Assembly: GCF_014203735.1 (NCBI RefSeq)
Contig: NZ_JACHJQ010000005.1
Span: 62,001-126,000 of the forward strand
From: Actinophytocola algeriensis
GTDB lineage: Bacteria > Actinomycetota > Actinomycetes > Mycobacteriales > Pseudonocardiaceae
Reading direction: 5' to 3'
Length of the DNA stretch: 64,000 bases
Shown: positions 2-44,202 of the stretch, piece after piece
Position numbering within the stretch: position 1 is the stretch's first letter
Layout of the letters: each line of letters begins with the position of its first letter
Position numbers and translations under genes: made by a program
The notes under the pieces: generated by a model
The model's database searches: none
Told to the model about the DNA's origin: nothing
What the model saw: only the letters and a program-made list of their open reading frames with translations

Positions 2-976
2 AAACTGATCGCGGAGGCGTGGGACGCGGGCGGGCTCTACCAGGTGGGCAGCTTCCCGGACTACTGCCGGTGGTCGGAGTGGAACGGGCGCTACCGGGAC
101 GCGATCCGCCGGTTCCTCAAGGGGGAGCCGGGCACGGTCAGCGAGATGGCCGACCGGATCGTCGGATCACCAGACATGTACCTGCGGCGCGGCCCGGTGG
201 CGTCGGTCAACTTCGTGACCTCGCACGACGGGTTCACGCTGCACGACCTGGTCGCCTACAACGACAAGCACAACGAGGCCAACGGCGAGCACGGCGCGGA
301 CGGCGACAACGCCAACCACTCGTGGAACTGCGGGCACGAGGGCCCATCGGCCGACCCCGGGGTGCTGGCGCTGCGGCGCAGGCAGATGCGCAACGCGCTG
401 GTGCTGCTGCTGACGAGCCACGGCGTGCCGATGCTGCTCGCGGGGGACGAGGTCGCCCGCACCCAGCACGGCAACAACAACGCCTACTGCCACGACAGCG
501 AGCTGTCGTGGTTCGACTGGCACGGCCTCGCGGCGAACGCCGACCTGCTGCGCTTCACCCGGCGCGCCATCGCGTTCCGGCACGCGCATCCGGTGCTGCG
601 CAGGCGCTGGCACGCCTCCGGCCACGCGCACGGCGCGCTGTTCCCGGACGTGAGCTGGCACGGCGTGCGCGCGTGGACCCCGGACTGGTCGGCGCACGGC
701 AGGCTGCTGGCGGTCATGTTCCACGCCGAGTCGACCGGCGCCGCGGAGGGCGCGCCGGACACCGTGTACGTGGCCGCGAACGCGCACTGGGAGGGCCACG
801 ACCTCGAGCTGCCCGGCCTGCCCGCCCACCTGGCGTGGCACCTGTTCGCGGACACCCACAGCGAGCCGTACGCGGCGGAGCCCGGCGCCGAGCCGCGGCT
901 CGGCGACCAGGAACGGGTCCACATCGGACCGAGGACGGTGCTCGTGCTGGTGGCGCGGGAGCCGGGAGGGAGTTGA
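2..976 (+). CDS. glgX: Glycogen debranching enzyme GlgX, C-terminal part
   Basis: This is the 3' part of a GH13 debranching enzyme (isoamylase/GlgX type), which hydrolyses alpha-1,6 branches of limit dextrins in cytoplasmic glycogen turnover. The reading frame is open from the first bases, so the start lies outside the window. Visible family features are the segment GSFPDYCRWSEWNGRYRD, the conserved FVTSHDGFTLHDLV block that carries the catalytic-site His-Asp, and the MLLAGDEVARTQHGNNNAYC segment after it. A beta-sandwich C-terminal domain follows to the stop. The stop codon lies two bases before the start of the STAS gene, so the two may be cotranscribed, although the functions look unrelated. 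Confidence 0.93.
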   Translation, partial: KLIAEAWDAGGLYQVGSFPDYCRWSEWNGRYRDAIRRFLKGEPGTVSEMADRIVGSPDMYLRRGPVASVNFVTSHDGFTLHDLVAYNDKHNEANGEHGADGDNANHSWNCGHEGPSADPGVLALRRRQMRNALVLLLTSHGVPMLLAGDEVARTQHGNNNAYCHDSELSWFDWHGLAANADLLRFTRRAIAFRHAHPVLRRRWHASGHAHGALFPDVSWHGVRAWTPDWSAHGRLLAVMFHAESTGAAEGAPDTVYVAANAHWEGHDLELPGLPAHLAWHLFADTHSEPYAAEPGAEPRLGDQERVHIGPRTVLVLVAREPGGS

Positions 977-1302: not shown

Positions 1303-1745
1303 TCGCCGTGCGAGCCCGTGGCATCGACGAACTCGGTGTCATGATCCCCGCCATCGTGGACCGGCTCGCACGTGCGACGGGGCTGACGCACAGCCAGGCC
1401 TACCGCCTGCGGCTGGCAACCGAGGAGATCACCACCAACATCGTGACGCACGGGTACGGCGGCCGGGGCGGCACGGTCGACATCGACGCCGGGTACGACG
1501 AGGTCTGGGCGTGGGTGCGGATCGAGGACGACGCGCCCGGGTTCGACCCGACCACCTACGAGGTGGTGCCCCGGCTGACCGCGGATCCCGGCTGGCCCCC
1601 GCTCGGCGGTTTCGGGCTGTTCCTCGCACTGTCCAGTGTGGACCGGCTGGAGCACGCCCGCGTCGAGGGCCGCAACCGCAACCTGCTCAAGATCCGGCGC
1701 TCGGGAGGAACTGATGAGGAAGCCATGCGTGCTTATCGTGGCTGA
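1299..1745 (+). CDS. Anti-sigma regulatory factor, RsbW-like serine kinase (HATPase)
   Basis: A 148-residue GHKL-type ATPase domain. The N-box is seen as RLATEEITTNIVTHGYG near residues 36-52, and a G2-like glycine segment (GGFGLFL) near 105-111. Proteins of this kind phosphorylate the STAS partner and hold a sigma factor. Its ATG overlaps the STAS stop (ATGA), and its 3' end overlaps the start of the phosphatase gene by 32 bases. This overlap argues for translational coupling of all three genes. The G1 box appears as EDDAPGF rather than the textbook DxGxG, which is common in this family. Confidence 0.88.
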   Translation: MIAVRARGIDELGVMIPAIVDRLARATGLTHSQAYRLRLATEEITTNIVTHGYGGRGGTVDIDAGYDEVWAWVRIEDDAPGFDPTTYEVVPRLTADPGWPPLGGFGLFLALSSVDRLEHARVEGRNRNLLKIRRSGGTDEEAMRAYRG

Positions 1746-13793: not shown

Positions 13794-14435
13794 GTGATCG
13801 TTCCGTCCCCCCGGTTCTGCGTCCTGCTCGGGCCCGACTACGCGGGCAAGTCGTCGGTGCTCGCCGAGTTCGCCCGCACGGCGGCGCCGTGGCGGTGCGT
13901 GTCGGTCGACGACGACGGCCTCGCGCCGGAGCACCGGTTGCTCGCCGACCTGCGGCGCCGCCTCGCCCGCGATGTGCTGCCCGGGCTCGGTTCCGCGTAC
14001 TCCGACGACTTCCTCGCGGGACTGTTGCAACTGGCCGTGCTGCACCTGCGCGACCGGGTGCTCGCCGCGGGCAATGCACCGGTCGTCGTCGACTCCTACT
14101 ACTACAAGATCCTCGCCAAGTGCCGTCTCGCCGGTGTCCGCGAGAACCCGATGTTCGCGTGGTGGCGCACTTTTCCCCGCCCGGCACGGGTGATCTGGCT
14201 GGACGTCGCGCCGGGAACCGCGTGGCGGCGGTGCGGCGATGGCGCGGGGACCAACCCGCTGGAGTACTACGGCGACCGTCCCGGCTGGCCGGGGTTCGAG
14301 GAGTACCAGACGGATCTGCGCAAAGTGATGCTCGACGAGACCGACCGGCTGCCGGTCACGGTCGTCGCCGAACAGGACAGTGTCGCGCGGACCGCGGCGA
14401 TGGTGGGGGAGGTGCTGGCCGATGAGCTCGGATGA
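13794..14435 (+). CDS. P-loop kinase-like protein (thymidylate-kinase fold)
   Basis: 213 residues. The Walker A motif is GPDYAGKSS (residues 13-21), close to that of thymidylate and other nucleoside-phosphate kinases. The segment VVVDSYYYKILAK resembles the DRYY region of these kinases, and VIWLDVAP a later strand. A substrate cannot be named from the sequence. It starts with GTG, 72 bases after the PLP-fold gene, and its end overlaps the GH3 gene by 14 bases, so the next protein is made by coupled translation. A role in activating or phosphorylating a pathway intermediate is possible. Confidence 0.75.
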   Translation: MIVPSPRFCVLLGPDYAGKSSVLAEFARTAAPWRCVSVDDDGLAPEHRLLADLRRRLARDVLPGLGSAYSDDFLAGLLQLAVLHLRDRVLAAGNAPVVVDSYYYKILAKCRLAGVRENPMFAWWRTFPRPARVIWLDVAPGTAWRRCGDGAGTNPLEYYGDRPGWPGFEEYQTDLRKVMLDETDRLPVTVVAEQDSVARTAAMVGEVLADELG

Positions 14436-24708: not shown

Positions 24709-26349
24709 GTGGCAACGCAAGAAAACAACAGGTCCGTTCGGGACGCGACCTTGGACCTCCTCCGGGAACTGGGGATGACCACGATCTTCAGCAACCCGAG
24801 CCACACCGAGATGAAGCTGTTCGAGGCCTGGCCCGACGACTTCCGGTTCGTGATGGGGCTGCAGGAGGCGGCCGTCGTCGGCATGGCGGACGGCTACGCG
24901 CAGGCGACCGGCACGCCGTCGCTGGTGATGATCAACGGCGGCCCAGGGCTCGGCAACGCGATGGGTTCGGTGTACACGGCGGCGAGCGCGCACACGCCGA
25001 TGGTGATCCTCGGCGGGCAGCAGGCGCGGAAGATGCTGCAGGGCGAACCGTTCCTGCACGCGAAGAACGCCACCCAGCTCCCGCAGCCCTACATCAAGTG
25101 GGCCGCCGAACCCGCCCGCCCGCAGGACGTGCCCGCGCTGCTCGCCAAGGCGTACAACATCGCCAAGCAGCACCCGCAGGGCCCGACGTTCGTCGCGGTG
25201 CCGGAGGACGACTGGGTGCGTCCCGCAGGCCCGCCGGTGAAGGTGCGGACCGTGGAGGCCGCCGTGGTGCCGAACCCGGCCGTGCTGGCCAGGCTGGCCG
25301 ACGAGCTGAACGCGGCCGAGCGCCCGGCGCTGGTCGCCGGGCCCGCGGTCGACGCGCAGGGCGCCAGGTACGAGCTGGTGCGGCTGGCCGAGAAGCTGGG
25401 CGCCACCGTGTACGGGAGCCCGGTGTGGCCGAGGGCCAGCTTCCCGGAGAGCCACCCGCAGTTCGCCGGTGTGCTGCCGCCCATCCCGGAGATGATCGCG
25501 GAGCGGCTGGGCGCCCACGACGTGGTCGCGATCCTCGGGAGCCCGGCGTTCACGCTGTTCACCTCGGCCGACCTGTTCTCCACCGCCGACGCCGAGCTGG
25601 ACACCAGCCCGCTGCCCGGACTGCCGGAGGGCACCCGGTTCCTGCACGTCACCGACGACCCGGAGGCGGCGTCCTGGTCGATGGCGGACGCCGCCTACGT
25701 GTGCCCGCCGGGCCTGGCGGTCAAGCAGCTGGTGCCGCTGGCGCGGCAACGGAACGGGGTGGCGGCCCCGGTGCAGAAGCCGACCTACCCGGTGCCCCAG
25801 GCGTCGGAGCCGCTCACCCAGGCCTACCTGTTCCACCTGCTGTCGCAGGAACTGCCGGAGGACGCGGTCCTGTTCGAGGAGCTGCCGATCGCGCGGGCCG
25901 ACTTCCACGAGCAGATCCCGCTCGGCCCGTCCAACGGGTACTACGCCACCGCGAGCGGTGCGCTCGGGTTCCCGTTCGCGGGTGCGGTCGGCTACGCGCT
26001 CGCCCGCCCCGACCGCCGTGCCGTGGTCGTCGTGGGGGAGGGGTCCGCGCAGTACACGCTGCACGCGCTGTGGACGGCCGCCCGGCACAAGCTGCCGGTC
26101 ACGTTCGTCATCCCGAACAACTCCGGGTACCTGTCGCTGAAGTACTACCTGGCCGACCAGGAGGCCTGGCACGTCGGCTGGGACCTGTCCGATGTGGACA
26201 TGGCGCAGCTTGCGCAGGGCTTCGGCTGCCCGGCGGAACGGATCACCTCACCGGACGGCCTGCGTGACTCGCTGAAGAAGGCGCTCGCCGCGGACGGACC
26301 GGTGCTGCTCGACGTCGTCGTCGAGGACCCGGGGTTGTTCCGACTCTGA
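24709..26349 (+). CDS. Benzoylformate-decarboxylase-like ThDP enzyme
   Basis: 546 residues. The ThDP-activating Glu53 is in GLQEAAVVGMADGYA. The diphosphate/Mg site begins VVGEGSAQ (443-446) and ends PNNSGY. Segments NAMGSVYTAASAHTP and PQGPTFVAVPEDDW match benzoylformate decarboxylases, which convert an aryl-2-keto acid to an aldehyde. Compared from memory with the Pseudomonas enzyme, the two active-site histidines (His70 and His281) appear to be Asn and Phe here, so the reaction may differ, for example a carboligation or another 2-keto acid. The GTG start follows GAAGGAGG. Confidence 0.87.
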   Translation: MATQENNRSVRDATLDLLRELGMTTIFSNPSHTEMKLFEAWPDDFRFVMGLQEAAVVGMADGYAQATGTPSLVMINGGPGLGNAMGSVYTAASAHTPMVILGGQQARKMLQGEPFLHAKNATQLPQPYIKWAAEPARPQDVPALLAKAYNIAKQHPQGPTFVAVPEDDWVRPAGPPVKVRTVEAAVVPNPAVLARLADELNAAERPALVAGPAVDAQGARYELVRLAEKLGATVYGSPVWPRASFPESHPQFAGVLPPIPEMIAERLGAHDVVAILGSPAFTLFTSADLFSTADAELDTSPLPGLPEGTRFLHVTDDPEAASWSMADAAYVCPPGLAVKQLVPLARQRNGVAAPVQKPTYPVPQASEPLTQAYLFHLLSQELPEDAVLFEELPIARADFHEQIPLGPSNGYYATASGALGFPFAGAVGYALARPDRRAVVVVGEGSAQYTLHALWTAARHKLPVTFVIPNNSGYLSLKYYLADQEAWHVGWDLSDVDMAQLAQGFGCPAERITSPDGLRDSLKKALAADGPVLLDVVVEDPGLFRL

Positions 26350-32527: not shown

Positions 32528-33751
32528 ATGAGTTCCCCGCCGACGCCGGAGCAGACTCGATCCAGGGGAAGTCTGGTGCTCCTGATCCTGTTCCTCGGCA
32601 CCTTCACGATGGGCAGTGCGGAACTCCTCGTCGTCGGGGTGCTGAACCTCATCGCCGAGGACGCCGCGGTGTCGATCAGCGCCACCGGCAACCTGGTCAC
32701 CGCGTACGCACTGGGGCAGGCGATCGGCGGGCCCCTGCTCACCGCGCTCACCGTCCGCTACAGCAGGCGGCTCGTGCTGCAGGTGGCGATGGCGGTGTAC
32801 GTCGCCGCGACCGCACTGATCGCGGTCAGCTCCGACTTCGGGCTGCTGCTGGCCGCCCGCGCGGTGACCGGCGCGCTTCAGGGCCTGTTCGTGGCGGTGG
32901 CCATCACGATCGGCATCAGCGTCGTGGCACCGGAGCGGATGGGCCGGGCCATGTCGGTGGTGATCGGCGGCTTCGCGGTGTCCACCGCGTTCGGCGTCCC
33001 GCTGGGCACACTCGTCGGTCAGCTGGTCGGCTGGCGCGGCGGCTTCTTCGGCGTGGTCCTGGTCGGCGTGCTGGTCCTGGCCGCGACACTCGTGTTCATC
33101 CCCAGGATCGAGGCCTCCGGCACGACCGGCATGCGCTCGCAGGTCCGCCACGCACTGCACCCGAGGGTCGTGGCGGTGCTGGGCTTCGCGGTGCTGCTGT
33201 TCGCGGGCCAGTTCGCCGTGCTGACCTACATGGAGCCGTACCTGGGTGACATCGTCGGCATCTCCGGCGGCCTCGTCAGCGCGTTCCTCCTGGTGTTCGG
33301 CATCACCAACGCACTGGGCACGTTCGCGGGCGGCAGACTGGCCGACCGCAACGCGACGCTGACGATGGTGGCGTGCTGCCTGGCGCTGGTGGTCGCACTG
33401 GGCGCACTCAGCTTCGCCGGTTCCGCTGCGGTGCTCACGGCGTTCCTCCTGGGAGTGTGGGGCCTGGCCGGCTTCGCGGCGGTGCCGTCGGTGCAGTACC
33501 GGGTGACGGCCCTGGCAGGGCCTGGCCGCGACCTGGCCGCGTCACTGCCGGCGTCCGCACTGAACGCGGGCATCGCGATCGGCGCGCTGGTGGGCGGCCT
33601 GACGGTGTCCGGCGCAGGCCTGGACGCCATAGCCGTGACAGGCGCGATCATCTGTGCCGCCGCGGTCCCGGTCGCGTGGGCCACCGGCTTCCTGAAGACA
33701 CCGGTGGTGCCCGCGGAGACCGACCCGCAGACAGTCCCCGCACACACGTGA
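32528..33751 (+). CDS. MFS transporter, AraJ/sugar-efflux type
   Basis: 407 residues, twelve apparent membrane segments. TMGSAELLVVGVLN in helix 1 and GNLVTAYALGQAIGGP are typical of the AraJ/NepI/Cml-type MFS subgroup of efflux proteins. A GTG at 32522 is an alternative start two codons earlier. It is divergent from the acyltransferase and 25 bases before an SDR gene that reads in the same direction, so transporter and SDR are probably one transcript. Confidence 0.88.
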   Translation: MSSPPTPEQTRSRGSLVLLILFLGTFTMGSAELLVVGVLNLIAEDAAVSISATGNLVTAYALGQAIGGPLLTALTVRYSRRLVLQVAMAVYVAATALIAVSSDFGLLLAARAVTGALQGLFVAVAITIGISVVAPERMGRAMSVVIGGFAVSTAFGVPLGTLVGQLVGWRGGFFGVVLVGVLVLAATLVFIPRIEASGTTGMRSQVRHALHPRVVAVLGFAVLLFAGQFAVLTYMEPYLGDIVGISGGLVSAFLLVFGITNALGTFAGGRLADRNATLTMVACCLALVVALGALSFAGSAAVLTAFLLGVWGLAGFAAVPSVQYRVTALAGPGRDLAASLPASALNAGIAIGALVGGLTVSGAGLDAIAVTGAIICAAAVPVAWATGFLKTPVVPAETDPQTVPAHT

Positions 33752-33776: not shown

Positions 33777-34559
33777 ATGTCCGGTGAGCTCAAAGGAAAG
33801 CGAGCCCTCGTCACGGGCGGCACACGAGGAATCGGCCTGGGCATCGTAGAACGGTTCCTGGAGGAAGGCGCGACCGTCGTCACCCTGGCACGAAACCCGG
33901 CGCCCCACCTCCCACCGGAAGCCACACTGGTACGAGCCGACCTGAGCACCCTGGACGGCGTCCAGTACGCGGCGAACGAGGCACTGTCGGTACTCGGCGG
34001 CCTCGACATCCTGGTGAACAACGCGGGCGGCACGGAAAGCGGCGCCCGCCCGTACATCAACGGAATATCGTCGATCCCGGACGAGCTGTGGGTGGACGTC
34101 ATGAAGACGCACTACCTGGCCGCGGTCCGCCTGGACCGCGCGGTCCTCCCGGGCATGATCGAACAGGGCGGCGGCTCGATCATCGAGATCGTCTCGAACT
34201 CCGCCCGCCGCCCGATCCCGCCACTGCTGCACTACACCGCGGCGAAGGCGGCACTGGCCAACTACGCCAAGGGCCTGGCAACGGAGGTGGCACCGCACGG
34301 CGTACGCGTGAACAGCGTCTCACCGGGCCTGACGAAAACGCCGAGCATCGACGGCGTGGTGGGCGCCATCGCCGGTGACACCGGCCAGGACCCACAAGAC
34401 GTCCGAAAGATGCTGGTGGAACTGGAAAGCGCCCCACTCAGGGGCGAAAGCGCCCCGGAAGACGTGGCGAACGTGGTCGTCTTCCTGGCCTCTGACCGCG
34501 CTTCCCGAGTAACGGGCGCCAACTACCTGGTGGACGCGGGCTCACTGTCGGAGGTGTGA
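33777..34559 (+). CDS. Short-chain dehydrogenase/reductase
   Basis: 260 residues, normal SDR length. The cofactor motif is TGGTRGIGLG (about residues 13-22), the NNAGG segment is near residue 80, and the active site has Ser142-region EIVSNSARRPIP and the Y-x3-K motif HYTAAKAALANYAKG. The C-terminal VTGANYLVDAG is the classical SDR end. It uses NAD(P)H to reduce or oxidise a carbonyl or alcohol; substrate unknown. Codon third positions drift to more A than in neighbours near the 3' end. Confidence 0.9.
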   Translation: MSGELKGKRALVTGGTRGIGLGIVERFLEEGATVVTLARNPAPHLPPEATLVRADLSTLDGVQYAANEALSVLGGLDILVNNAGGTESGARPYINGISSIPDELWVDVMKTHYLAAVRLDRAVLPGMIEQGGGSIIEIVSNSARRPIPPLLHYTAAKAALANYAKGLATEVAPHGVRVNSVSPGLTKTPSIDGVVGAIAGDTGQDPQDVRKMLVELESAPLRGESAPEDVANVVVFLASDRASRVTGANYLVDAGSLSEV

Positions 34560-34607: not shown

Positions 34608-34727
34608 GTGCGCGAGCGAGTGCAATGTCGTGAGGGTGCCGACAGGACGCGCCGCCTGGATGCACGGATGGTCGAGCCGCGTCTTCCTGCCTCGCGCCCG
34701 CACCGGGCCTGGCCTTGGCCCGGCGTG

Positions 34728-34817
34728 ACGAAGGGGTCCTTCATCACGCGGGGCGTTACGAAGGGGTCCTTCATCACGCCGGGCGTTACGAAGGGGTCCT
34801 TCATCACGCCGGGCGCC
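34728..34817. repeat. Three tandem 30-bp palindrome-bearing units
   Basis: Units of 30 bases start at 34728, 34758 and 34788, each with GAAGGGGTCCTTC and a GGGCGTT-like tail. They match the array at 23518-23697 closely. This array also lies between two convergent genes and ends in a long perfect hairpin. Confidence 0.92.
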
Positions 34818-34863
34818 ACGAAAGGCCCTTCGGGACGTTGAGCGTCCCGAAGGGCCTTTCGTG
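34817..34863. terminator. 21-bp perfect hairpin at end of repeat array
   Basis: The arm at 34817-34837, starting CACGAAAGGCCCTTCGGG, pairs exactly with 34843-34863 around TTGAG. It could end transcripts from either side. Confidence 0.85.
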
Positions 34864-35073: not shown

Positions 35074-35490
35074 CTAAACCGAAGAAGGAACCTCAACCAG
35101 AGCAGCGAGCCCGGCAGCGGCGATGATCTCGTCCTCGCCGCGAGCGCTGCCGGAAACCCCGACAGCACCGACGACAGAACCGCCCAGCGAGATCGGCAGC
35201 GCACCGGGCAGCAACGAGAACCCGGGCCGGTTGGACAACCCGGCGAGCACAGCCGGATCAGCGGAGGCGAACTCCGCCAGAGCCTGGGTGGACATGCCGT
35301 AGCCGGCGGCGGTGGCCGCCTTGTCCACGGCCAGCGATGTGGTGGCGAACGTCGCGGCGTCCATGCGCACCAGTGCCTTGAGGTTCCCGCCACTGTCGAC
35401 GACGGCGACGCACACCCCCGCTCCGAGCGACTCGGCGTGCGCGATCGCGGCGTCGACGACACGACGGGCTTCGACGGCGGAAATGGTCAT
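35074..35490 (-). CDS. GlcG/HbpS-family protein
   Basis: 138 residues. The family pattern is clear: ARRVVDAAIAHAESLG, CVAVVDSGGNLKALVRMDAA, TSLAVDKAATA and GAVGVSGS. HbpS of Streptomyces binds haem; GlcG-like proteins occur in many catabolic operons, and some act as isomerase- or cofactor-binding proteins. No signal peptide is seen, so it should be cytoplasmic. The ATG follows AAGGAGG. It is the last gene of a five-gene minus-strand operon, 69 bases after the SnoaL gene. Confidence 0.87.
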   Translation of the reverse strand: MTISAVEARRVVDAAIAHAESLGAGVCVAVVDSGGNLKALVRMDAATFATTSLAVDKAATAAGYGMSTQALAEFASADPAVLAGLSNRPGFSLLPGALPISLGGSVVGAVGVSGSARGEDEIIAAAGLAALVEVPSSV

Positions 35491-35559
35491 GACTACCTCC
35501 TTGAAAGGGGAAAGACCCGGGCGGCAGCCGCCACCCGGGTCGATCCGGTCCACCACGGT

Positions 35560-35988
35560 TCAGGCCCGCGGCGCGTACGCCACCGCGGCGATGCCGAACT
35601 CCACCCCGGCGATGATCGGGTCGAAGTACTCCCAGTACTCACGAACCAGACCGGAGGCGTCGAACTTGAAGATGCCGAGGTAGTTGTTCAGGTACCGGCG
35701 ACCGCCGACGAGCACGCACTCCGAGTCGAACCTGGCGAACACGGTGTCGTCGGCCTCCCACGTCTCCCTGATCGGGAAACTCAGGCTGTCGAACATCGAC
35801 GGCATGCCCTTCCACCGGTCGTAGATCGCTGCCTTGCCGACGAGGTGCCGGGGGAACATCCGCGTGCCGAACGGGTAGTACTGCGCGCCTTCGTCGGCCC
35901 ACAGCTCCATCCAGTCGTCGATGTTCCGCTCCTCCAGCAACCGGAGGAACGTCCCCACCGTCGAGACGTTGCGGCTAGGGGCACCCAT
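35560..35988 (-). CDS. SnoaL/NTF2-like protein
   Basis: 142 residues in the size and pattern of SnoaL-like NTF2-fold proteins: TFLRLLEERNIDDWMELWADEGAQYYPFG at the start and YWEYFDPIIAG near the end. Such proteins act as polyketide cyclases, ketosteroid isomerases or dehydratases. Its start lies one base after the stop of the EthD gene, so translation is coupled. It pairs with the SnoaL-type domain in the first gene of the operon. Confidence 0.88.
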   Translation of the reverse strand: MGAPSRNVSTVGTFLRLLEERNIDDWMELWADEGAQYYPFGTRMFPRHLVGKAAIYDRWKGMPSMFDSLSFPIRETWEADDTVFARFDSECVLVGGRRYLNNYLGIFKFDASGLVREYWEYFDPIIAGVEFGIAAVAYAPRA

Positions 35989-35989
35989 G

Positions 35990-36673
35990 TCAACGCGCCT
36001 GTGGCCCGATGACCCAGTGCTCGGTGAACAGCAACCGGTGAACGTACTTCGGCTCGGCGATCGAGAACAGATCCTCTTCCGCACGAGCGAACTCCGGCGA
36101 CGAGAGCGCCGCGGCGACGGCGTCGGCGTCGTCGAAGTACAACTGGTAGGCGGCGTCGAGCACAGCCTCACCGATGCCGTAGTAGCCATCCGAGGTGAAG
36201 CCCTGCAGATACCGGCGCAACCCGGGCACCTCGGCCATCAGCTCGGCGTGCTTGCCGAGGCTGCGCTCACGGAACTCCTTGAGCGGCAACCCTTCCCGGC
36301 GCTTGGCCAGCACGATCATCTTGACGCCGCCGGTGCCCGGCCGCACCTCGTGCGCGAACGTGTCCAGCACGACCGTCCGCCAGAACGCCGCCCACTTGGG
36401 CTCGTCCAACCGGGCACCCTGGAGGAACTCGTCGGTCTGCAGCGACGCCAGCTGCTCTTCCACGTTCTCGAGCCAGATCTCGGCGACCCCGCTCCACAAC
36501 GGCTCGGCTCCGGGGTCCTCGCCAGGGAAGGGGATCCGCTTGTCGATCAGGTACTTGCGAATCTGCGGGATCTTGCTCGCGTACTCGACCGCGTGCACGT
36601 CGAGCCAGTAGTCCTGGAACTCCCGCTCGGTCATGCCAGGCTTCGGCGCGGCGAAAATGAGCTGGTGAATCAT
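35990..36673 (-). CDS. Tandem EthD-domain protein
   Basis: 227 residues made of two EthD-type dimeric alpha/beta-barrel domains. The first (about 1-105) starts IHQLIFAAPKPGMTEREFQDY. The second (about 117-225) starts VKMIVLAKRREGLPLKEFRE and has a matching GKHAELMAEVPGLRRY helix. Single EthD domains usually dimerise; here one chain may form a complete barrel. EthD-like proteins assist ether degradation or act on polyketides, so the exact reaction is open. It lies 28 bases after the muconolactone-isomerase-like gene. Confidence 0.87.
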   Translation of the reverse strand: MIHQLIFAAPKPGMTEREFQDYWLDVHAVEYASKIPQIRKYLIDKRIPFPGEDPGAEPLWSGVAEIWLENVEEQLASLQTDEFLQGARLDEPKWAAFWRTVVLDTFAHEVRPGTGGVKMIVLAKRREGLPLKEFRERSLGKHAELMAEVPGLRRYLQGFTSDGYYGIGEAVLDAAYQLYFDDADAVAAALSSPEFARAEEDLFSIAEPKYVHRLLFTEHWVIGPQAR

Positions 36674-36701
36674 GATGCTCCCTGTCCGTTCTGGCGGATC
36701 C

Positions 36702-37010
36702 TCAGACCTGGTAACGCTTCTTGACGTCGTCGGCGAAGCCGAGGTAGTCGCGCAGCGGCCACACTTCCTCGAACTCCAGGTACTCGCGCATCGGCAGCCT
36801 GCCGAGCGCGGTGCGGTCCAGCTCCTCCGCGTCGGGGGAGTCGATGATCGCGATGACGCGCTTCTGCGCGGCCACCTTCCAGATGCCGACGCAGAAACCG
36901 GAGTCGACGGTGTCCTGCGCGTGCTCGGCCTCCTCCTGCTCGATCTCCCACAGCTCGTCGAGCGTGATCCGGCCTTCGTGGTTCCACTTCATCTGCACGT
37001 AGAACAGCAT
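36702..37010 (-). CDS. Muconolactone-isomerase-like protein
   Basis: 102 residues. The start MLFYVQMKWN and the end EVWPLRDY match the muconolactone delta-isomerase family (usually 90-100 residues), which moves a double bond in beta-ketoadipate ring catabolism. No other beta-ketoadipate gene is present, so the substrate is probably another lactone or cyclic intermediate. The ATG follows GAGGAGG. The gene starts 16 bases after the SnoaL-ankyrin gene. Confidence 0.85.
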   Translation of the reverse strand: MLFYVQMKWNHEGRITLDELWEIEQEEAEHAQDTVDSGFCVGIWKVAAQKRVIAIIDSPDAEELDRTALGRLPMREYLEFEEVWPLRDYLGFADDVKKRYQV

Positions 37011-37026
37011 TGGAGTACCTCCTCGG

Positions 37027-38469
37027 TCAGGACTTCGCGCGGATGGCGCCGGTCAGCGGGTGGTCGTCCCCGAACACCTCGACCGCGAGGTCGAGCGGGG
37101 TCTTCCCGTCGTGTCCCACCAGATCGAGCCGCGCGCCTGCCTCGATGACGGCCCGCGCGCACTCCTCGTAGCCGTGCCACAGCGCGTCGTGCAGCGGCGT
37201 GTACCCGTTGGTGGCGCCCTGGAAGTCGAGGTTCACCCCGGGCCAGGCGGCGATCATCGTCGTCAGCTCGACGTGTCCGTTGTAGACGGCCTTGTGCAGC
37301 GGGACGGCGCCGAACGTCGGCTCGGTGGCGTTGACGTCCGCGCCCGCGGACAGCAGCAGCCGCGCGATCTCGGTGTGCCCGTCCCGGGACGCGACCAGGA
37401 GCGGGGTGTGCCCGTCGTTGAACCCGTTGACGATGGGGAACACCTCGTCGATCTCGGCGCCGTCGGCGATCAGCGCGCGCACGCTGTCGACCTCGCCCGC
37501 GCTGACCGCCGCCATCAGCTTCTGCGTGGCCACCTGTTCCTCGTCGGAGGCGATGCGCGCGTTCAGGTACTTCTCCGCGAGCAGCAGGCGGTCCTTGCCG
37601 ATGGTGTTCACGTTCAGCTCGTAGGCGAAGTGCTCCTTCAGCGAGAAGCCGTAGTGCGTGCTGAGGTTCAGCCCGGCGCCCGCGTCGAGCAGGTACTTCG
37701 CGACCTCGGGGAACTTGAACCACAGCGCGTCCATCAGCGGGGTGTGCCCGGTCGTCGGGGCGACCGCGTCGACGAACGCGCCCGCCTCGACCAGCGTCCG
37801 CACCACGTCGAGGCTGCCGCCCTGGCACGCCTTGTGCAGTGCGGTCGCGCCTGCGCCGCTGTCGGCGGTGAACACGTCCGCGCCGCGACCGACGAGCAGG
37901 TCGGTCATCGGCGCGTCGGCGCGCCCAGCGGCGATCATCAGCGCGGTCAGGCCGCTCGCCGGGTCCCGGTGGTTGACGTCCGCGCCGAAGTCGAGTACCT
38001 CGGAAACCGTTGCGTGGTCACCGTTCCAGGCGGCGGCGATCAACCGCCCGTTCGCGTCCGAGGTGAAGGCCGCGATCTCCCCGTTGGGGTCGAAGTACAC
38101 CTTCCACCGCACGATCCGGCCCGTGTCGTCGACGACCATCTCGTGCGCGTCGAGGATCTCGAACTCCTGGCGGGTCCGCGTGTGCGCGGCCCTGGTGTAG
38201 ATGGTCGCGATCGCGGTGTCGCCGTCGGCGCGCAGCCCGCGCATCGCGTAGTCCAGCACCTCGGTGGTCTCCGCGCGGACGGCGAACGCCTGCCGCACCT
38301 CGTCGACGCCGTGGTGCACCCCGAGATAGGGGATGACCCGGTTCCACTCGTCGCGCGGGAGGTCGAACTCGATGTCCGGAGAGAGCAGCGCCAACGCCGA
38401 GTCGAGGTCGCCGTTCTCGAGGCTGGAGAAGTACTTCTCCACCACCTGCCTGGTTTGTTCCGTACTCAT
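37027..38469 (-). CDS. SnoaL-like domain fused to ankyrin repeats
   Basis: 480 residues from the ATG at 38469, which follows GGGAGGAA. Residues about 1-130 form a SnoaL/NTF2-type domain (VVEKYFSSLENGDLDSALALL, then WKVYFDPNGEIAAF). Residues about 140-480 hold about eight ankyrin repeats, for example GHTPLLVASRDGHTEIARLL and GYTPLHDALWHGYEECA. I know of no described protein with this order. It is the first gene of the operon, so it may scaffold the small enzymes encoded after it. No signal peptide or membrane segment. Confidence 0.88.
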   Translation of the reverse strand: MSTEQTRQVVEKYFSSLENGDLDSALALLSPDIEFDLPRDEWNRVIPYLGVHHGVDEVRQAFAVRAETTEVLDYAMRGLRADGDTAIATIYTRAAHTRTRQEFEILDAHEMVVDDTGRIVRWKVYFDPNGEIAAFTSDANGRLIAAAWNGDHATVSEVLDFGADVNHRDPASGLTALMIAAGRADAPMTDLLVGRGADVFTADSGAGATALHKACQGGSLDVVRTLVEAGAFVDAVAPTTGHTPLMDALWFKFPEVAKYLLDAGAGLNLSTHYGFSLKEHFAYELNVNTIGKDRLLLAEKYLNARIASDEEQVATQKLMAAVSAGEVDSVRALIADGAEIDEVFPIVNGFNDGHTPLLVASRDGHTEIARLLLSAGADVNATEPTFGAVPLHKAVYNGHVELTTMIAAWPGVNLDFQGATNGYTPLHDALWHGYEECARAVIEAGARLDLVGHDGKTPLDLAVEVFGDDHPLTGAIRAKS

Positions 38470-38684: not shown

Positions 38685-40043
38685 TCAGGAGGACGACCGG
38701 CCGCGGGGCACGAGCCGGACGCGGATCGGCTTCTCCGGGCCCAGCGTCAGCAGCGGCCGGGGGACGACCGGGTCCTGCGACTCCAGCTCGAGGCGGTAGC
38801 GCTGCAACGTGCTCGCGATGACGAGCAGCATCTCGGTCATCGCGAACTGGTTGCCGATGCACAGGTGCGGGCCGGAGCCGAACGGGAGGTAGGCGCTGCG
38901 GTCGCGTTTCGCGACCTCGTCGGCGGTGAACCGCTCCGGGCGGAACTCCTCCGGCTCGTCCCAGAACTCCGGGTGCCGGTGCGCGTGGTACGGGCTGAAG
39001 AAGATGTCGGTGCCCGCGGGGACGCGGAACCCGCCGATCTCGTCCTCCTCCAGCGAGCGCCGCGACGCCAGCCACTGCTGCGGGTACAGCCGCTGCACCT
39101 CGTCGAGCACGGAGCGGGTGTAGGTCAGCTTGCTGCAGTCGGCGAGGGTCGGCGGCCTGCCGTCCAGCTCGTCGTCGATCTCGCGCAGCACCCGCTGCTG
39201 GACCTCGGGGTGCATGCCGAGCCGGTACCAGGTCCACGTGAGGACGTTCGCGCCCGTCTCGTGGCCTGCCCACAGCATGATCATGACCTGGTCGCGCAGC
39301 TGCTCGTCGGTGAGACGGGCGCCGGTCTCCTCGTCCTCGGTCATGATCAGCATCGACAGCAGGTCACCCCGGTCCACCTGGTCGGTCAGGTGCTGGGTGA
39401 TCACGTAGTCGATGATCTCCTCGACGACCGCCCGGTTCGCCCAGTACCGCCGGTGGCCCGCCGTCGGCACGGACAGCGGCAGCAACGGGAACTGCATCCA
39501 CGCGCCGAGTTCGTGGTCGACGGTGTCGATGGCCGTGGCGAAGCGGTCGCAGACCTCGCCCTCCTCCAGCGCGAACAGCGCCCGCGCGACGACCCGCAAC
39601 GTCAGGCTGCGCATCTCGGGTGCGGTGTCGATGACCTCGCCTGCCGCGGCCTTCTCGTCCCACCGCTCGAGCCGGGCCTGGATCACGGCCAGCATGTGCT
39701 CGGCCATGGTCGCGACGCGCTGGTAGTGGAACGACGGCTGCATCAGCCGTCGCATCGAGCGCCACTCCTCACCGCCCTCGACGGTGGCGAGCCCGCGGCC
39801 GAACAGGGTGCGGGACATCTTGTACGGCATGGAGCTGCGGTCGTAGGCCCCGGCCTTCTGCTGCAGCACCCGCCGGATGTGGTGCGGATGGCGCAACAGG
39901 ATGATCCGGTTGGCGGCCAGCCGGAACGACGCGACGTCACCGTGGGTGTCCAGCACGTTGGTGAGGAAGGCGAGTGGGGCCTTCTGGTAGGTCAGCATCG
40001 TGCGGACGAAGTTGGCCGGGCCGGGTGGGGTGGGAAGCGGCAC
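38685..40043 (-). CDS. Cytochrome P450
   Basis: 452 residues. The haem loop is FGSGPHLCIGNQ with Cys395, the I-helix has AGHETGA, and the K-helix ExxR is in DEVQRLYPQ. The sequence is of the CYP4/CYP102-like E-class type rather than the usual bacterial B class. It needs redox partners that are not encoded nearby. The GTG at 40043 was chosen because AGGA lies upstream and the protein then begins with the usual Pro-rich membrane-free start PLPTPPGP. It is divergent from the conservon, with 126 bases between them. Confidence 0.9.
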   Translation of the reverse strand: MPLPTPPGPANFVRTMLTYQKAPLAFLTNVLDTHGDVASFRLAANRIILLRHPHHIRRVLQQKAGAYDRSSMPYKMSRTLFGRGLATVEGGEEWRSMRRLMQPSFHYQRVATMAEHMLAVIQARLERWDEKAAAGEVIDTAPEMRSLTLRVVARALFALEEGEVCDRFATAIDTVDHELGAWMQFPLLPLSVPTAGHRRYWANRAVVEEIIDYVITQHLTDQVDRGDLLSMLIMTEDEETGARLTDEQLRDQVMIMLWAGHETGANVLTWTWYRLGMHPEVQQRVLREIDDELDGRPPTLADCSKLTYTRSVLDEVQRLYPQQWLASRRSLEEDEIGGFRVPAGTDIFFSPYHAHRHPEFWDEPEEFRPERFTADEVAKRDRSAYLPFGSGPHLCIGNQFAMTEMLLVIASTLQRYRLELESQDPVVPRPLLTLGPEKPIRVRLVPRGRSSS

Positions 40044-40169
40044 GGCAGTCGATCCTGCCAGAGCGACTCGCGCTCGCGAGGGCCGTTTGGTCGAATCCGC
40101 TCCGATGTTTGCCCCGTCCAGTATCTTGCCTACTTGCTCCTTCGGTGGCCGCCGAGCGTGAGGACCGAC

Positions 40170-41630
40170 ATGCCAGCACGAGAGCCCGTCCCGCAAGAGC
40201 ACCGGTCCATGACCGACGTGCTGCTCTGCCTCCTACTCACCATGGCCGTCACGGCAGGCGTGACGCTGTGGGTGACGTTCCAGGTCGCCGAGGAGGACAG
40301 ACTGGTCGTCGCCGTGTCCGCGGGTGCGATGGCCCTGGGGCTCTGCATCGCGCTGACGTTCACCACCTACCGCGCGATCCGCGCGCGGCGGACCGTCGCA
40401 CGCCTGCGCACGCTGGAGAACGGCCTTGCCAGGCTGGTGGGGGAGGTCCTGCCGAAGGCCGCGGCCCGGGTGCGCGACGGCGCCTCCGCCGACACGGTCC
40501 TCGCCGAGCTGGCGCCGACGGCCGCCGACGTGCCGGGGAAGCTCCTCGGCGCCGTGGTCCGGGAGATCGGCGTGAGCGAGCGGCAGCGGTCGGCCGCGAT
40601 GGCCGCGTGCGCGAACGCCGCGGGCCGGGTGCAGGCCATGGCGACGAGCATGCTCGCCGACCTCCGCGAGATGGAGGGCCGCCACGCCGAGAACGTGCTG
40701 GGCGACCTGCTGAAGCTCGACCACAGCACCGCGCAGACCGGCCGCCTCGCCGACAGCATCGCGGTGCTCACCGGTGCGCGCTCGGGCCGCCGCTGGACCA
40801 AGCCGATCGTGATGGAGTCCATCCTGCGTGGCGCGATGGGCCGGATCCAGGCGTACCAACGGGTCCAGGTCCACTCGAGCAGCACGGCCGCGGTCGTCGG
40901 CTACGCCGCGGAGGACGTGATGCACGCGCTCGCCGAGCTGATGGACAACGCGACCCGGTTCTCCGCGCCGTCGGAAGAGGTGCACGTCTACGTCGAGGAG
41001 CTGCACACCGGCGTCGTGGTCACCATCGAGGACGGCGGGCTCGGCATGAAACCGCAGGCACTCGCGCGGGCGGAGTCGGCCGTGTCCACCGACGGGCCGC
41101 TGGACCTCGCGAAGGTGCCCGGCACGCGGCTCGGCCTGGTGGTCGTGGGCTCGCTCGCGCGCAAGCACAAGCTGCAGGTGTACTTCCGGCCGTCGTCGCG
41201 GGGCGGCACCGGCGTGGTGATCCGCATCCCGCAGCAGCTCGTGATCCACCCGCGTGCGGACGCGCCCGCCACGGCGCGCACCGACTCGCGGACCGCCGGG
41301 TCCGTCCGGGCGGGGAGCGGGGACACCGCGACCGCCACCGGGGCCACGGCGACCACCACGACCAGGGCGCCCGTCACCACCGCCACCGCGGTGCTGGACT
41401 CGGCGCCGCCACCTACCGAGGACACCGTGGAACTGCCAGAACTACCGGAACTGCCCAAGCGGCCACGTGGGCAGACGCTCGCCGCCGCCGTCCGTGCGAC
41501 GGAGGCGAAACGCAAACCCGGGGAACGCACCGAGAAGAGGACCGACATCGGCGCGCGCTTCAGCGCTTTCCAGCAGGGCCGCCGATCCACCACGCCAGAC
41601 CAGTCCGCTGGAGAGGAAGACTCGTTATGA
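40170..41630 (+). CDS. cvnA: Conservon histidine-kinase-like protein CvnA
   Basis: 486 residues. Two hydrophobic segments lie near residues 15-37 and 43-62, then a coiled region, and a GHKL ATPase domain with ALAELMDNATRFSAP, EDGGLGMKP and LGLVVVGSLARKH. The C-terminal 110 residues are low-complexity Thr/Ala-rich and basic. This is the first protein of a conservon, the actinobacterial membrane complex with a Roadblock protein, a DUF742 protein and a small GTPase. Its stop overlaps the next ATG (ATGA). The ATG follows GAGGA. Confidence 0.9.
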   Translation: MPAREPVPQEHRSMTDVLLCLLLTMAVTAGVTLWVTFQVAEEDRLVVAVSAGAMALGLCIALTFTTYRAIRARRTVARLRTLENGLARLVGEVLPKAAARVRDGASADTVLAELAPTAADVPGKLLGAVVREIGVSERQRSAAMAACANAAGRVQAMATSMLADLREMEGRHAENVLGDLLKLDHSTAQTGRLADSIAVLTGARSGRRWTKPIVMESILRGAMGRIQAYQRVQVHSSSTAAVVGYAAEDVMHALAELMDNATRFSAPSEEVHVYVEELHTGVVVTIEDGGLGMKPQALARAESAVSTDGPLDLAKVPGTRLGLVVVGSLARKHKLQVYFRPSSRGGTGVVIRIPQQLVIHPRADAPATARTDSRTAGSVRAGSGDTATATGATATTTTRAPVTTATAVLDSAPPPTEDTVELPELPELPKRPRGQTLAAAVRATEAKRKPGERTEKRTDIGARFSAFQQGRRSTTPDQSAGEEDSL

Positions 41631-42046
41631 CCATGGCGACCGACGCCAACCTCACCTGGATGCTGGAGAGCCTGGTGGAGCAGACCGCGGGCGCCACGCA
41701 CGCGCTGGTGCTCTCCAGAGACGGGCTCAAGCTCTGCCACACGTCCGGGATGTCGATCGACCAGGCCGACCAGCTGTCCGCGATCGCGGCGGGCGTGCAG
41801 GCGCTGTCCCAGGGCGCCTCCGTCGAGTTCGGGGACGGCACCGGCGGGGTGCGGCACTCGATGACCGAGTTCCACGGCGGCATCCTGTTCATCGTCGAGG
41901 CCGGTGAGGGCGCCCACCTGGCCGTGGTCGCGGCCGAGGACGCCGACGTCGGGCTGATCGGCCACCGGATGAACGAGCTGGTGGAACAGATCGGCGCCTT
42001 CCTGATCGCGCCGCCCCGGCAGCCAGAGCGCACCCAGCAGGCATGA
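41627..42046 (+). CDS. cvnB: Roadblock/LC7 protein CvnB
   Basis: 139 residues, one Roadblock/LC7 domain (LVEQTAGATHALVLSRDGL, later GILFIVEAGEGAHLAVVA). In conservons this type of protein is thought to act on the GTPase partner as a regulator. ATGA overlap with cvnA and overlap with the next ATG fix its place in the operon. Confidence 0.92.
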   Translation: MTMATDANLTWMLESLVEQTAGATHALVLSRDGLKLCHTSGMSIDQADQLSAIAAGVQALSQGASVEFGDGTGGVRHSMTEFHGGILFIVEAGEGAHLAVVAAEDADVGLIGHRMNELVEQIGAFLIAPPRQPERTQQA

Positions 42047-42405
42047 TCCGCCGCGAGCTCGACAACGAGGAGCCGGACCGGCTCTACACCGTCACCCGCG
42101 GGCGCAGCGTCGCGGACGACCCCCACCTCGACATCGTCACGCTGATCGTCGCCGCCGCCGACCCCGCGCCGGGCATGCAGTCCGAGCACGCCAGGATCCT
42201 GCGCGCGTGCCGCGCTCCGGTCGCCGTCGTGGAGATCTCCGCCGACCTCGGGCTGCCGGTCGGCGTGGTGAAGATCCTCCTGTCCGACCTGCTGCGGGCC
42301 GGCAAGATCACCGCCCGCCACCCGTCGTCGTCGGCGCGCGCCCGCACGCAGCTGCCCGACACCGCTCTCCTGAAGAAGGTGCTCGTTGGACTCCACAAGC
42401 TCTGA
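42043..42405 (+). CDS. cvnC: DUF742 protein CvnC
   Basis: 120 residues, the usual size of DUF742 proteins. The opening LYTVTRGRS and the helix-turn-helix-like AVVEISADLGLPVGVVKILLSDLL are the recognised features. In conservons it binds the other components; a winged-helix DNA-contact role has been suggested for the fold but is not shown here. Overlaps cvnB by four bases and the GTPase gene by 20 bases. Confidence 0.92.
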   Translation: MIRRELDNEEPDRLYTVTRGRSVADDPHLDIVTLIVAAADPAPGMQSEHARILRACRAPVAVVEISADLGLPVGVVKILLSDLLRAGKITARHPSSSARARTQLPDTALLKKVLVGLHKL

Positions 42406-42991
42406 GCCCCGCGTGCCGCTGGCCGGCACGGTGACCGAGGGCCTGAAGATCGTGATCGTCGGCGGGTTCGGCGTCGGCAAGACGACCATGGTCCGCGCGG
42501 TGAGCGAGATCCGGCCGCTGTCAACCGAGGAGACGATGACCCAGGCGGGGGAGGGCATCGACCACCCCGGTCTCGCCGACGGCAAGACCACCACGACCGT
42601 CGCGTTCGACTTCGGCCGCATCAGCCTGGACGACCAGATGGTGCTCTACCTGTTCGGCGCGCCCGGCCAGGAACGGTTCTGGTTCGTGTGGGACCGGTTG
42701 TTCTCCGGCACGCTCGGCGCGGTGGTCCTCGTGGACACCCGCAGGCTCGCCGACTCCTGGTACGCCATCGACCGGCTCGAACACCACCGGACGCCGTTCA
42801 TCGTGGCACGCAACAACTTCCCGGGTTCCACGCACAGCATCGAGGACGTGCGGGACGCGTTGTCGCTGCCGGACGACGTGCCGCTGATCGACTGCGACGC
42901 CCGCGACCGCGCGTCGGCGAAGAAGGTGCTGATCACCCTGGTGGACCACCTCTACGAGCTGAGCACCGCCAAGGAGGCCGTCCTGTCATGA
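42386..42991 (+). CDS. cvnD: Conservon GTP-binding protein CvnD
   Basis: 201 residues. P-loop GGFGVGKTTM, then the switch-II-like FGAPGQERFWF in place of the DTAGQ of Ras-type GTPases, and DARDRASAKKVL near the end. It is the GTPase of the conservon. A TTG at 42386 after GAAGAAGG is the likely start, giving MDSTSSEP; a GTG at 42413 is the alternative. The ATGA overlap with the P450 gene follows. Confidence 0.9.
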   Translation: MDSTSSEPRVPLAGTVTEGLKIVIVGGFGVGKTTMVRAVSEIRPLSTEETMTQAGEGIDHPGLADGKTTTTVAFDFGRISLDDQMVLYLFGAPGQERFWFVWDRLFSGTLGAVVLVDTRRLADSWYAIDRLEHHRTPFIVARNNFPGSTHSIEDVRDALSLPDDVPLIDCDARDRASAKKVLITLVDHLYELSTAKEAVLS

Positions 42992-44202
42992 CCGACGTCG
43001 TGCGCCGCACCGAAGCGGTTCCGCTGTACGGGGACCGGTACCAGACCGACCCCGCCGGGTTGTACGCGGAGATCCGCGAGACGCACGGGCCGGTCGCGCC
43101 CGTGCTGCTGGAGGGCGACATCCCGGCGTGGTTCGTGTGCGGGTACCGGGAGCTGCACCAGGTCACCACCGACGCCGCGCTGTTCGCGCGGGACACGCGG
43201 CGGTGGAACGCGTGGGAGACCGTGCCGGACGACTGGCCGCTGCTGCCGCACCTGGTGCACAACCCGTCGGTCATGTTCACCGAGGGCCCGGAGCACCGCA
43301 GACGCGCCGGTGCCCTGTCCGACGCGCTCGAGTCGGTGGACCAGTTCGAGCTGGCGAACCAGTGCGAGCGCATCGCCGACCAGATGATCGACCGGTTCGC
43401 GGGCGCGGGCGAGGCCGAGCTGATGGGCCAGTACGCGTCGCGGATCCCGCTGAGTGCCACGGCGATGATGTGCGGGGTGCCCGAGTCGGAGGCCAGGATC
43501 CTCGTCGACGACGTGATGGGCGCGCTGAACTCGTCGATGGCGAACCAGATGGCCGTGTACGGCCGCATGCAGGAGGAGATGCAGCGGCTCGTCGACCGCA
43601 AGCGCGCGCTGCCCGGCGTGGACGTGCCGTCGCACCTGCTGGCCGACCCCGCGAACCTGGGGGACGAGGAGATCCTGTCGGACCTGCTCGTGGTGCTGCT
43701 GCAGGCGCACCAGCAGACGACGAACTGGATCGGCAACACGATCGGCCTGATGCTGACCGACGAGCGGCTGGCGGTCACGCTGTCCGGTGGCCGGTCCAGC
43801 GTCGGCGACGCGCTCAACGAGGTGCTGTGGCACGACACCCCGACGCAGAACTACCTGGGCCGCGTCGCCACCCGCGACACCCGCCTCGGCGGGCAGCGGA
43901 TCCGGGCGGGTGACCTGCTGGTGCTCGGCCTGGCCGCCGCCAACGCCGACCCGCAGGTCAAGCCCGAGGGCACGGCGGGCACGGCGGGCAACCGGGCGAT
44001 GATGTCGTTCGGCCACGGCGAGCACGGCTGCCCCTACCCGGCGCCGGAGCTCGCCGAGATCATCGCGAAGACCAGCGTCGAGGTGCTGATCGACCGGCTG
44101 CCCGATCTGGTGCTGTCCGAGGAGCTCGAATGGCGCTCGTCGGTGTGGACCCGCGGCCTGGTCCGGCTCCCGGTGACCTTCACCCCGACGTACGTGCCCT
44201 GA
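42988..44202 (+). CDS. cvnE: CYP157-like P450, CvnE, without ExxR arginine
   Basis: 404 residues. The haem-ligand region is FGHGEHGCPYPAPELAE with Cys348. The K-helix reads NEVLWHD, so the normally invariant ExxR is E278-x-x-W281. The I-helix is also atypical (LLQAHQQTTNW instead of AGxxT). This matches what is known of the CYP157 family of streptomycete conservons, in which the Arg is missing. The enzyme is expected to sit on the conservon complex; its substrate is unknown. It starts in an ATGA overlap with cvnD. Confidence 0.92.
   Translation: MTDVVRRTEAVPLYGDRYQTDPAGLYAEIRETHGPVAPVLLEGDIPAWFVCGYRELHQVTTDAALFARDTRRWNAWETVPDDWPLLPHLVHNPSVMFTEGPEHRRRAGALSDALESVDQFELANQCERIADQMIDRFAGAGEAELMGQYASRIPLSATAMMCGVPESEARILVDDVMGALNSSMANQMAVYGRMQEEMQRLVDRKRALPGVDVPSHLLADPANLGDEEILSDLLVVLLQAHQQTTNWIGNTIGLMLTDERLAVTLSGGRSSVGDALNEVLWHDTPTQNYLGRVATRDTRLGGQRIRAGDLLVLGLAAANADPQVKPEGTAGTAGNRAMMSFGHGEHGCPYPAPELAEIIAKTSVEVLIDRLPDLVLSEELEWRSSVWTRGLVRLPVTFTPTYVP

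Follow-up and report, generated by a model that had tools for sequence, protein, structure and literature searches.

Five adjacent minus-strand genes occupy positions 35074-38469 of a 64,000-nucleotide stretch of the Actinophytocola algeriensis genome (contig NZ_JACHJQ010000005.1, here C5), which begins at C5:62001 and is referred to as the window. They encode a SnoaL-ankyrin fusion, a muconolactone-isomerase-like (MIase-like) protein, a tandem EthD protein, a second SnoaL-like protein and an HbpS/GlcG-like protein (Table 1). An earlier note, made from the window alone, had read all five as one set encoding an assembled isomerisation or cyclisation complex. The analyses presented here revealed that the conserved unit is the trio of SnoaL-ankyrin, MIase-like and tandem EthD genes, and not the five genes. 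The trio stands within a set of about eight enzymes that is distributed over at least six phyla, often beside sugar-storage genes, and that probably works as one sugar-fed pathway. At the genome level, the co-occurrence of the trio with GATD, a specific ThiJ-like protein with a type-1-amidotransferase domain, was obligate. We see about an even chance that the operon constitutes the isomerase/cyclase arm of a sugar-linked pathway not yet described, whose other arm would comprise GATD, DJ-1, a benzoylformate decarboxylase (BFDC)-like thiamine diphosphate (TPP) enzyme and an N-acylglucosamine 2-epimerase (AGE) family protein, beside a glycogen debranching enzyme.

The conserved unit and its distribution

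Open reading frames and Pfam matches confirmed the five-gene arrangement, with gaps of 16, 28, 1 and 69 bases from SnoaL-ankyrin to HbpS. The first protein carried both SnoaL_2 (E 3e-12) and ankyrin repeats (E 3e-46). The MIase-like protein matched Pfam MIase (E 1.8e-13, 50.9 bits against a cut-off of 26.7), while the tandem EthD matched Pfam EthD in two stretches (E 1.7e-18) and also passed the TIGR02118 family cut-off in two stretches (62.2 against 30.5). The second SnoaL passed SnoaL_2 (E 1.2e-14, 55.1 against 27) and fell below the gathering cut-off of PF07366, the SnoaL polyketide cyclase family (22.4 against 28.4). The HbpS-like protein passed PF03928 (E 4.4e-31, 108 against 25), a family assignment made from sequence alone. 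A codon-usage gene caller returned the same five genes, with the EthD and ankyrin starts slightly further in; homologues favoured the upstream starts. The HbpS gene was weak in this caller (score 9), and homologues 80-82% identical were located at the same place in two Amycolatopsis loci (L055 and L085).

We then listed 74 loci in one genome per species of GTDB using MIase patterns alone. The seeds were two peptide patterns from seven rows, all beside an ankyrin gene, and distant MIases were missed. The 74 loci represent about 71 genomes (L093, L096 and L109 share one, as do L095 and L102), and L050 and L051 are apparently the same places as L107 and L060. Loci were found in Actinomycetota, Cyanobacteriota (Pleurocapsa, Paraprochloron), Bacillota (Clostridia), Pseudomonadota (Sphingobium, Rhodoplanes), Nitrospirota and a Desulfarculus, and the trio was also carried by Nostoc and Streptomyces plasmids. 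The ankyrin gene lay within 600 bases of MIase on the same strand in 65 loci, and ankyrin and EthD both did so in 40. The exact five-gene order, together with the convergent short-chain dehydrogenase/reductase (SDR) gene and the major facilitator superfamily (MFS) gene, occurred in two of the 74 loci, Amycolatopsis dendrobii (L055) and A. circi (L085). The second SnoaL (at least 55% identity) was found in six loci and the HbpS-like protein (at least 50% identity) in three, being adjacent in only two; these two genes join the trio only in close relatives, and the idea of the five genes as one set had to be abandoned. In five same-genus genomes of the sample there was no full-length SnoaL-ankyrin, the best matches being partial (E 1.8e-9 or weaker).

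Co-occurrence with GATD and the other half of the set

The partner families were nearly always present, whether or not they were neighbours. The ankyrin protein was encoded in 69 loci and elsewhere in four of the five remaining genomes (73/74). Tandem EthD was encoded in 52 loci and elsewhere in 20 of the 22 remaining genomes (72/74); a comparison of coordinates placed it beside GATD in 18 of these 20. GATD lay in the fetched stretch of 36 loci and, when the 38 other genomes were searched whole, 35 of them had it (61-93% identical), giving 71/74. The misses were L070, a 6 kb contig (GATD and EthD), L092 (GATD) and L124 (everything). L124 behaves as an out-group, since its MIase is only 49% identical and all partners are missing. 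As a background, 345 genomes of the class contained GATD in only eight cases. MIase and EthD were each present in two of these 345, one of them A. algeriensis, and both were GATD-positive. Among 72,556 plasmid records, MIase was found in eight, seven of them with GATD, and GATD in 14. That the partners so seldom go missing, although many genomes encode them at separate places, favours a common function over common inheritance of one operon.

GATD, DJ-1 and TPP enzyme genes were found again beside the trio in many loci, and on a Nostoc plasmid the trio adjoined a DJ-1 protein, GATD and a TPP enzyme. In A. algeriensis, a GATD-TPP-DJ1-AGE-STAS-GlgX run was located at C5:55475-62976, about 41 kb from the operon and just left of the window, so that only its GlgX end falls inside. 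The earlier view of the operon alone was incomplete in this respect, the TPP enzyme, two DJ-1 family proteins, AGE and GlgX lying mostly outside the stretch on which it was based. The core TPP enzyme matched BFDC along almost its entire length (E 1.5e-64), whereas its neighbours differ and include no mandelate pathway. The TPP-activating Glu and one His were kept with respect to BFDC, and the second BFDC His was unaligned; the roles of these residues are as we presume them for BFDC. Conserved residues were Glu51 and His74 in the TPP enzyme, Glu28 and Cys125 in DJ-1 and Cys161 in GATD. His389, His524 and His530 of AGE (window genome numbering), which we take to be catalytic, were conserved in 35 of 35 rows and had counterparts in a clostridial form described below. 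GlgX was isoamylase-like (E 2.7e-189).

Alpha-glucan-trehalose genes were frequent neighbours of the module. An alpha-glucan or AGE gene was present in the fetched stretch of 37 of the 74 loci, a GlgE-like gene in 17 and a TreS-like gene in 11, and GlgE/TreS/GlgX-type genes were annotated on the NBC_00334, NBC_00464 and SAT1 plasmids. To our knowledge, the GlgE pathway as described includes none of the AGE, GATD, DJ-1, TPP and barrel proteins.

Compact and alternative forms of the set

Five loci from clostridial metagenome-assembled genomes (L112, L116, L119, L120 and L125) carried GATD, DJ-1, a 502-aa-type protein, EthD, MIase, SnoaL/ankyrin and the TPP enzyme in one run. Although the 502-aa protein had no Pfam match, hhalign related it to AGE (probability 97.9, E 3.5e-13), and it kept the GHxxKxxW histidine. 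This compact version places the system within seven or eight genes and makes it directly testable. Neither HbpS nor any oxidase or oxygenase was among the genes identified in the five loci, and the haem link suggested by the earlier note did not stand: because HbpS is peripheral (3 of 74 loci), a haem enzyme complex was discarded.

Six of the eight GATD-positive class genomes lacked MIase and EthD. In five of them (L138 and L141-L144), two to four small proteins and a glucose-methanol-choline (GMC) oxidoreductase were encoded between the TPP enzyme and DJ-1. The three small proteins of L138 were SnoaL_2 proteins, and there a vicinal oxygen chelate (VOC) protein gene followed DJ-1. In the sixth genome (L137), the core lacked this insertion. 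Deinococcus and Runella plasmids carried the GMC form according to their annotation, and Nostoc ATCC 53789 and Gemmobacter combined EthD with two GMC genes and two hydrolases. These layouts suggest a shared base of GATD, TPP, DJ-1, AGE and usually SnoaL, on which EthD-MIase-ankyrin and GMC-multi-SnoaL seem to be alternative arms. Near the GMC oxidases of the Nostoc versions, genes for Nif11-like and NHLP-type leader peptides were observed (L148 15471-16131 and L147 5929-6645).

Fusions, predicted structures and sequence constraint

Of the 69 loci that encode ankyrin, 27 had it in a single open frame with SnoaL. A MIase-SnoaL fusion took its place in 8 of 74 loci (Pfam was run on two), and a DJ1-GATD fusion also exists. 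The AlphaFold2 model of SnoaL-ankyrin had a mean pLDDT of 93.8 and a pTM of 0.75. In its six regular ankyrin repeats, the groove-facing position 13 was invariant (6/6: Gly182, Gln216, Trp250, Arg362, Tyr396 and Trp431), and conservation was 0.88 at groove positions against 0.56 at outward helix-B positions, both picked according to DARPin numbering. Mean conservation was lower in the NTF2 part (0.56) than in the ankyrin part (0.74). Only ankyrin and DARPin chains appeared among the best 50 Foldseek matches listed, so this search was uninformative on the NTF2 part. Altogether, the fusions and the conserved groove support a putative physical complex, as judged from sequence and model. The complex proposed in the earlier note survives in part: the barrel and NTF2 proteins appear to be functionally bound (72-73 of 74 loci, fusions) and an isomerisation or cyclisation chemistry fits their folds, while the five-gene scope and the haem component do not hold.

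The tandem EthD model (pLDDT 90.3) resembled the anthrone oxidase-like protein 5f9p (VIA Z 16.4, rmsd 3.3, 202 aligned), sulfur oxygenase reductase (Z 15.7, rmsd 3.5, 219 aligned), EthD 2ftr (Z 14.0, rmsd 2.3, 99 aligned), bacterial chalcone isomerase (Z 13.8, rmsd 4.4, 206 aligned) and methylmuconolactone methylisomerase (Z 12.3). The fold is that of the EthD/dimeric alpha-beta barrel enzymes, olivetolic acid cyclase among them, and chalcone isomerase and anthrone oxidase-like proteins also share the tandem architecture, although identity to the tandem-fold matches was 6-13% (first 20 rows). We know of no such system that carries the partner genes seen here. The modelled likeness would not by itself prove a function. 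His27 and Glu65 were invariant in 39 rows. Median amino acid identity was 87% for MIase (78 loci) and 62-63% for EthD and ankyrin, and MIase third-position identity was slightly raised (69 against 60-61). High protein identity with third positions so little raised indicates strong purifying selection rather than recent transfer.

Several relatives of SnoaL-ankyrin were observed in other settings. In L107, L108 and L109, a short second paralogue covering about residues 1-274 (48-50%) was encoded at a distance of 6-7 kb from the main gene. A Planktothrix agardhii plasmid (L047 15001-16944) encoded a 647-aa 'NADH:flavin oxidoreductase' that starts with a SnoaL-ankyrin half (41% over residues 1-274), set in an unrelated biosynthetic cluster. 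In Agrobacterium (L048 9998-11029), a stand-alone 343-aa ankyrin protein, 41% to the ankyrin half, lay beside an oxidoreductase and a hydrolase. Rhizobial plasmids were frequent among the 95 plasmid records matched.

Proposed pathway and alternative explanations

From co-occurrence, fusions and the conservation of catalytic-type residues and of the ankyrin groove, we infer a possible chemistry. A sugar, often derived from glucan or trehalose, would be isomerised by AGE and give a 2-oxo or dicarbonyl intermediate, which would serve as substrate for the TPP enzyme and the Cys-dependent DJ-1 proteins. Tandem EthD, MIase and SnoaL could then carry out redox-neutral enol shifts or ring closure. The ankyrin domain would tether SnoaL to a constant partner, for which the MIase assembly is the likeliest candidate, and an MFS pump, often encoded nearby, may export the product. 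More tentatively, and with some doubt, this could be a sugar pathway, redox-neutral and independent of oxygen, in which at least eight proteins take part and which extends from Clostridia to Nostoc and Streptomyces. It would convert a storage-glucan sugar into a small cyclic enolone-type product in an ankyrin-scaffolded EthD-MIase-SnoaL complex, and in a second form GMC oxidases and several SnoaL proteins would stand in for that complex. The glycogen genes and tautomerase-like enzymes also raise, as speculation, the anhydrofructose pathway; no GH31 alpha-glucan lyase was seen among the Pfam-scanned neighbour proteins, most neighbours not having been scanned.

Several observations weigh against a single sugar-fed pathway. 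The kinship of AGE to solved epimerases is weak (E 9e-5), as is its likeness to cellobiose 2-epimerase. In the window genome, an unrelated polyketide synthase (PKS)/GH3 stretch parts the two halves by the 41 kb mentioned above. Correlated pairwise distances among the five families (r 0.68-0.89, 32 loci) speak for one pathway, but they also reflect shared ancestry. The six class genomes with GATD and without MIase or EthD indicate that the trio is optional for the core. Finally, no GlgX/GlgE or other glucan enzyme was identified alongside the five clostridial sets, which suggests that the glucan genes may supply the substrate in some hosts and not belong to the chemistry.

The main rival is reactive-carbonyl detoxification. 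Here, dicarbonyls of the methylglyoxal or glucosone type would arise from glycogen or trehalose mobilisation under stress, DJ-1 and the TPP enzyme would consume them, and EthD, MIase and SnoaL would process side products. Two DJ-1 family members with a conserved nucleophile-type Cys fit such a role, as do the VOC and aldo-keto reductase genes nearby in some loci and, on a Streptomyces plasmid, the STAS/SpoIIE partner switch, antiporter and superoxide dismutase genes close to the set. However, a detoxifier does not obviously need three isomerase-type folds and a conserved ankyrin scaffold, and the spread is sporadic (MIase and EthD in 2 of 345 class genomes); we regard this explanation as somewhat unlikely. 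It is improbable that the genes merely hitch-hike on shared mobile stress islands, as their sporadic distribution, plasmid carriage and many variable accessory genes might suggest, given that the families stay together in 71-73 of 74 cases even when split over the genome, that neighbours are kept across phyla and that several fusion combinations exist.

The Pfam names MIase and EthD evoke a unit for the catabolism of aromatic compounds or lactones (muconolactone), or a remnant of EthD-type ether degradation, which we consider very unlikely. The MIase-like protein has the family (PF02426) and length of CatC muconolactone delta-isomerase and a profile match to 1mli (E 0.00047, positions 1-82), but it scored 31.2 bits against the 130.6 of the CatC equivalog TIGR03221, and its constant neighbours are AGE and other sugar genes, TPP and DJ-1 genes, with no muconate pathway. 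EthABCD ether degradation uses a dedicated P450 and ferredoxin/reductase; the window P450 lies upstream and is not retained beside the module in the maps of relatives, and ferredoxin genes were not searched for. The absence of an oxygenase, as claimed in the earlier note, was true of the window's operon but not of all relatives: seven of the 74 loci encoded an FAD aromatic-ring-hydroxylase-type protein near the module (within 10 kb, as for all such counts, shortened by contig ends), and the alternative form has GMC oxidases. The clostridial core loci have no oxygenase among the genes identified, and the same genes were not found in a described aromatic degradation operon. It is just as hard to credit that the small enzymes serve the PKS cluster of the window (4390-7122, 14422-16101 and EncM-like 27727-29397) as cyclases or tailoring enzymes. 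SnoaL and EthD-fold proteins are classic polyketide cyclases, the NTF2-fold SnoaL/SnoaL_2 cyclases being represented here by the SnoaL_2 domain of the fusion and by the second SnoaL, and the window does encode a PKS module protein as well as an EncM-like FAD oxidase. However, SnoaL is here fused to ankyrin or MIase, GATD, TPP and AGE accompany the trio across phyla, including on plasmids and in clostridial genomes, and no PKS gene was noted in the annotated plasmid neighbourhoods. The window PKS was dismissed as partner of the operon, the constant partners being other genes.

The gene set is built from known superfamilies, and no description of it was found in searches of open-licence PMC full text, subscription papers and preprints being outside this scope. 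We class the set as a metabolic gene cluster and do not claim a new category. Its co-occurrence over at least six phyla suggests a real metabolite or stress function absent from current maps, which would give a role to a group of proteins that so far bear no more than the names ankyrin, EthD, muconolactone isomerase, DJ-1 or AGE.

Surroundings of the operon in the window

Table 1. Genes of the operon and of its surroundings, in window positions
Feature	Position	Strand	Remarks
SnoaL-ankyrin fusion	37027..38469	-	480 aa; NTF2-like domain 1-128, about 10 ankyrin-type repeats 139-479, long-helix insertion 277-315
MIase-like protein	36702..37010	-	102 aa; Pfam MIase; most conserved member
Tandem EthD	35990..36673	-	227 aa; two ferredoxin-like barrels in a single chain; Pfam EthD
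Second SnoaL-like protein	35560..35988	-	142 aa; Pfam SnoaL_2; clade-specific addition
HbpS/GlcG-like protein	35074..35490	-	138 aa; Pfam HbpS-like; clade-specific addition
P450	38685-39998	- (operon strand)	directly upstream of operon
SDR oxidoreductase	33777..34559	+	convergent with operon; Pfam/NCBIfam; kept in L055 and L085 at 92%
MFS efflux transporter (Cmx/CmrA-like)	32576..33751	+	Pfam/NCBIfam, gene caller
Second TPP enzyme, BFDC-like	24709..26349	+	Pfam, PDB comparison
GlgX/isoamylase-type glycogen debranching enzyme, 3' end	2..976	+	gene starts left of window at C5:60829
STAS protein	979-1302	+	Pfam; partner-switch gene beside GlgX
HATPase	1299-1745	+	Pfam; partner-switch gene beside GlgX
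SpoIIE phosphatase	1729-2964	+	Pfam; partner-switch gene beside GlgX

MFS-related transporters (at least 40% identity) were near the module in 23 of the 74 loci, which suggests export of the product or of a toxic intermediate. Homologues of the second TPP enzyme (at least 60% identity) lay within 10 kb of MIase in 18 loci, and this enzyme may be a member of the same pathway. The EncM-like oxidase (E about 1e-85 to EncM) was located near it, and in L078 a berberine-bridge-enzyme-type oxidase precedes the counterpart of this TPP enzyme. The arrangement of STAS, HATPase and SpoIIE genes beside GlgX was the same on a Streptomyces plasmid and partly so in Deinococcus.

A scan of the operon for sigma-70 promoters and terminators gave nothing exceeding shuffles. 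In the PADLOC anti-phage defence scan, none of the eight non-ankyrin proteins matched and the ankyrin protein matched two models; a defence-island reading was dropped, the scan being negative apart from that protein.

Between the GlgX run and the operon, positions 3042-23488 contained genes for a PKS module protein (4390-7122), a GH3-type protein (14422-16101), AAA proteins and DDE transposases, and this stretch looks like a separate cluster. On the other side (38685-44202), the minus-strand P450 faces a plus-strand run encoding a 473-aa HATPase and proteins of 139, 120, 192 and 404 aa, an arrangement that we take to resemble a conservon; of these, the P450, the HATPase and the 404-aa protein were tested, the last giving no Pfam match. 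A 30-base tandem repeat of 3.5 copies (34718-34822) was present between the ends of the SDR gene and the operon.

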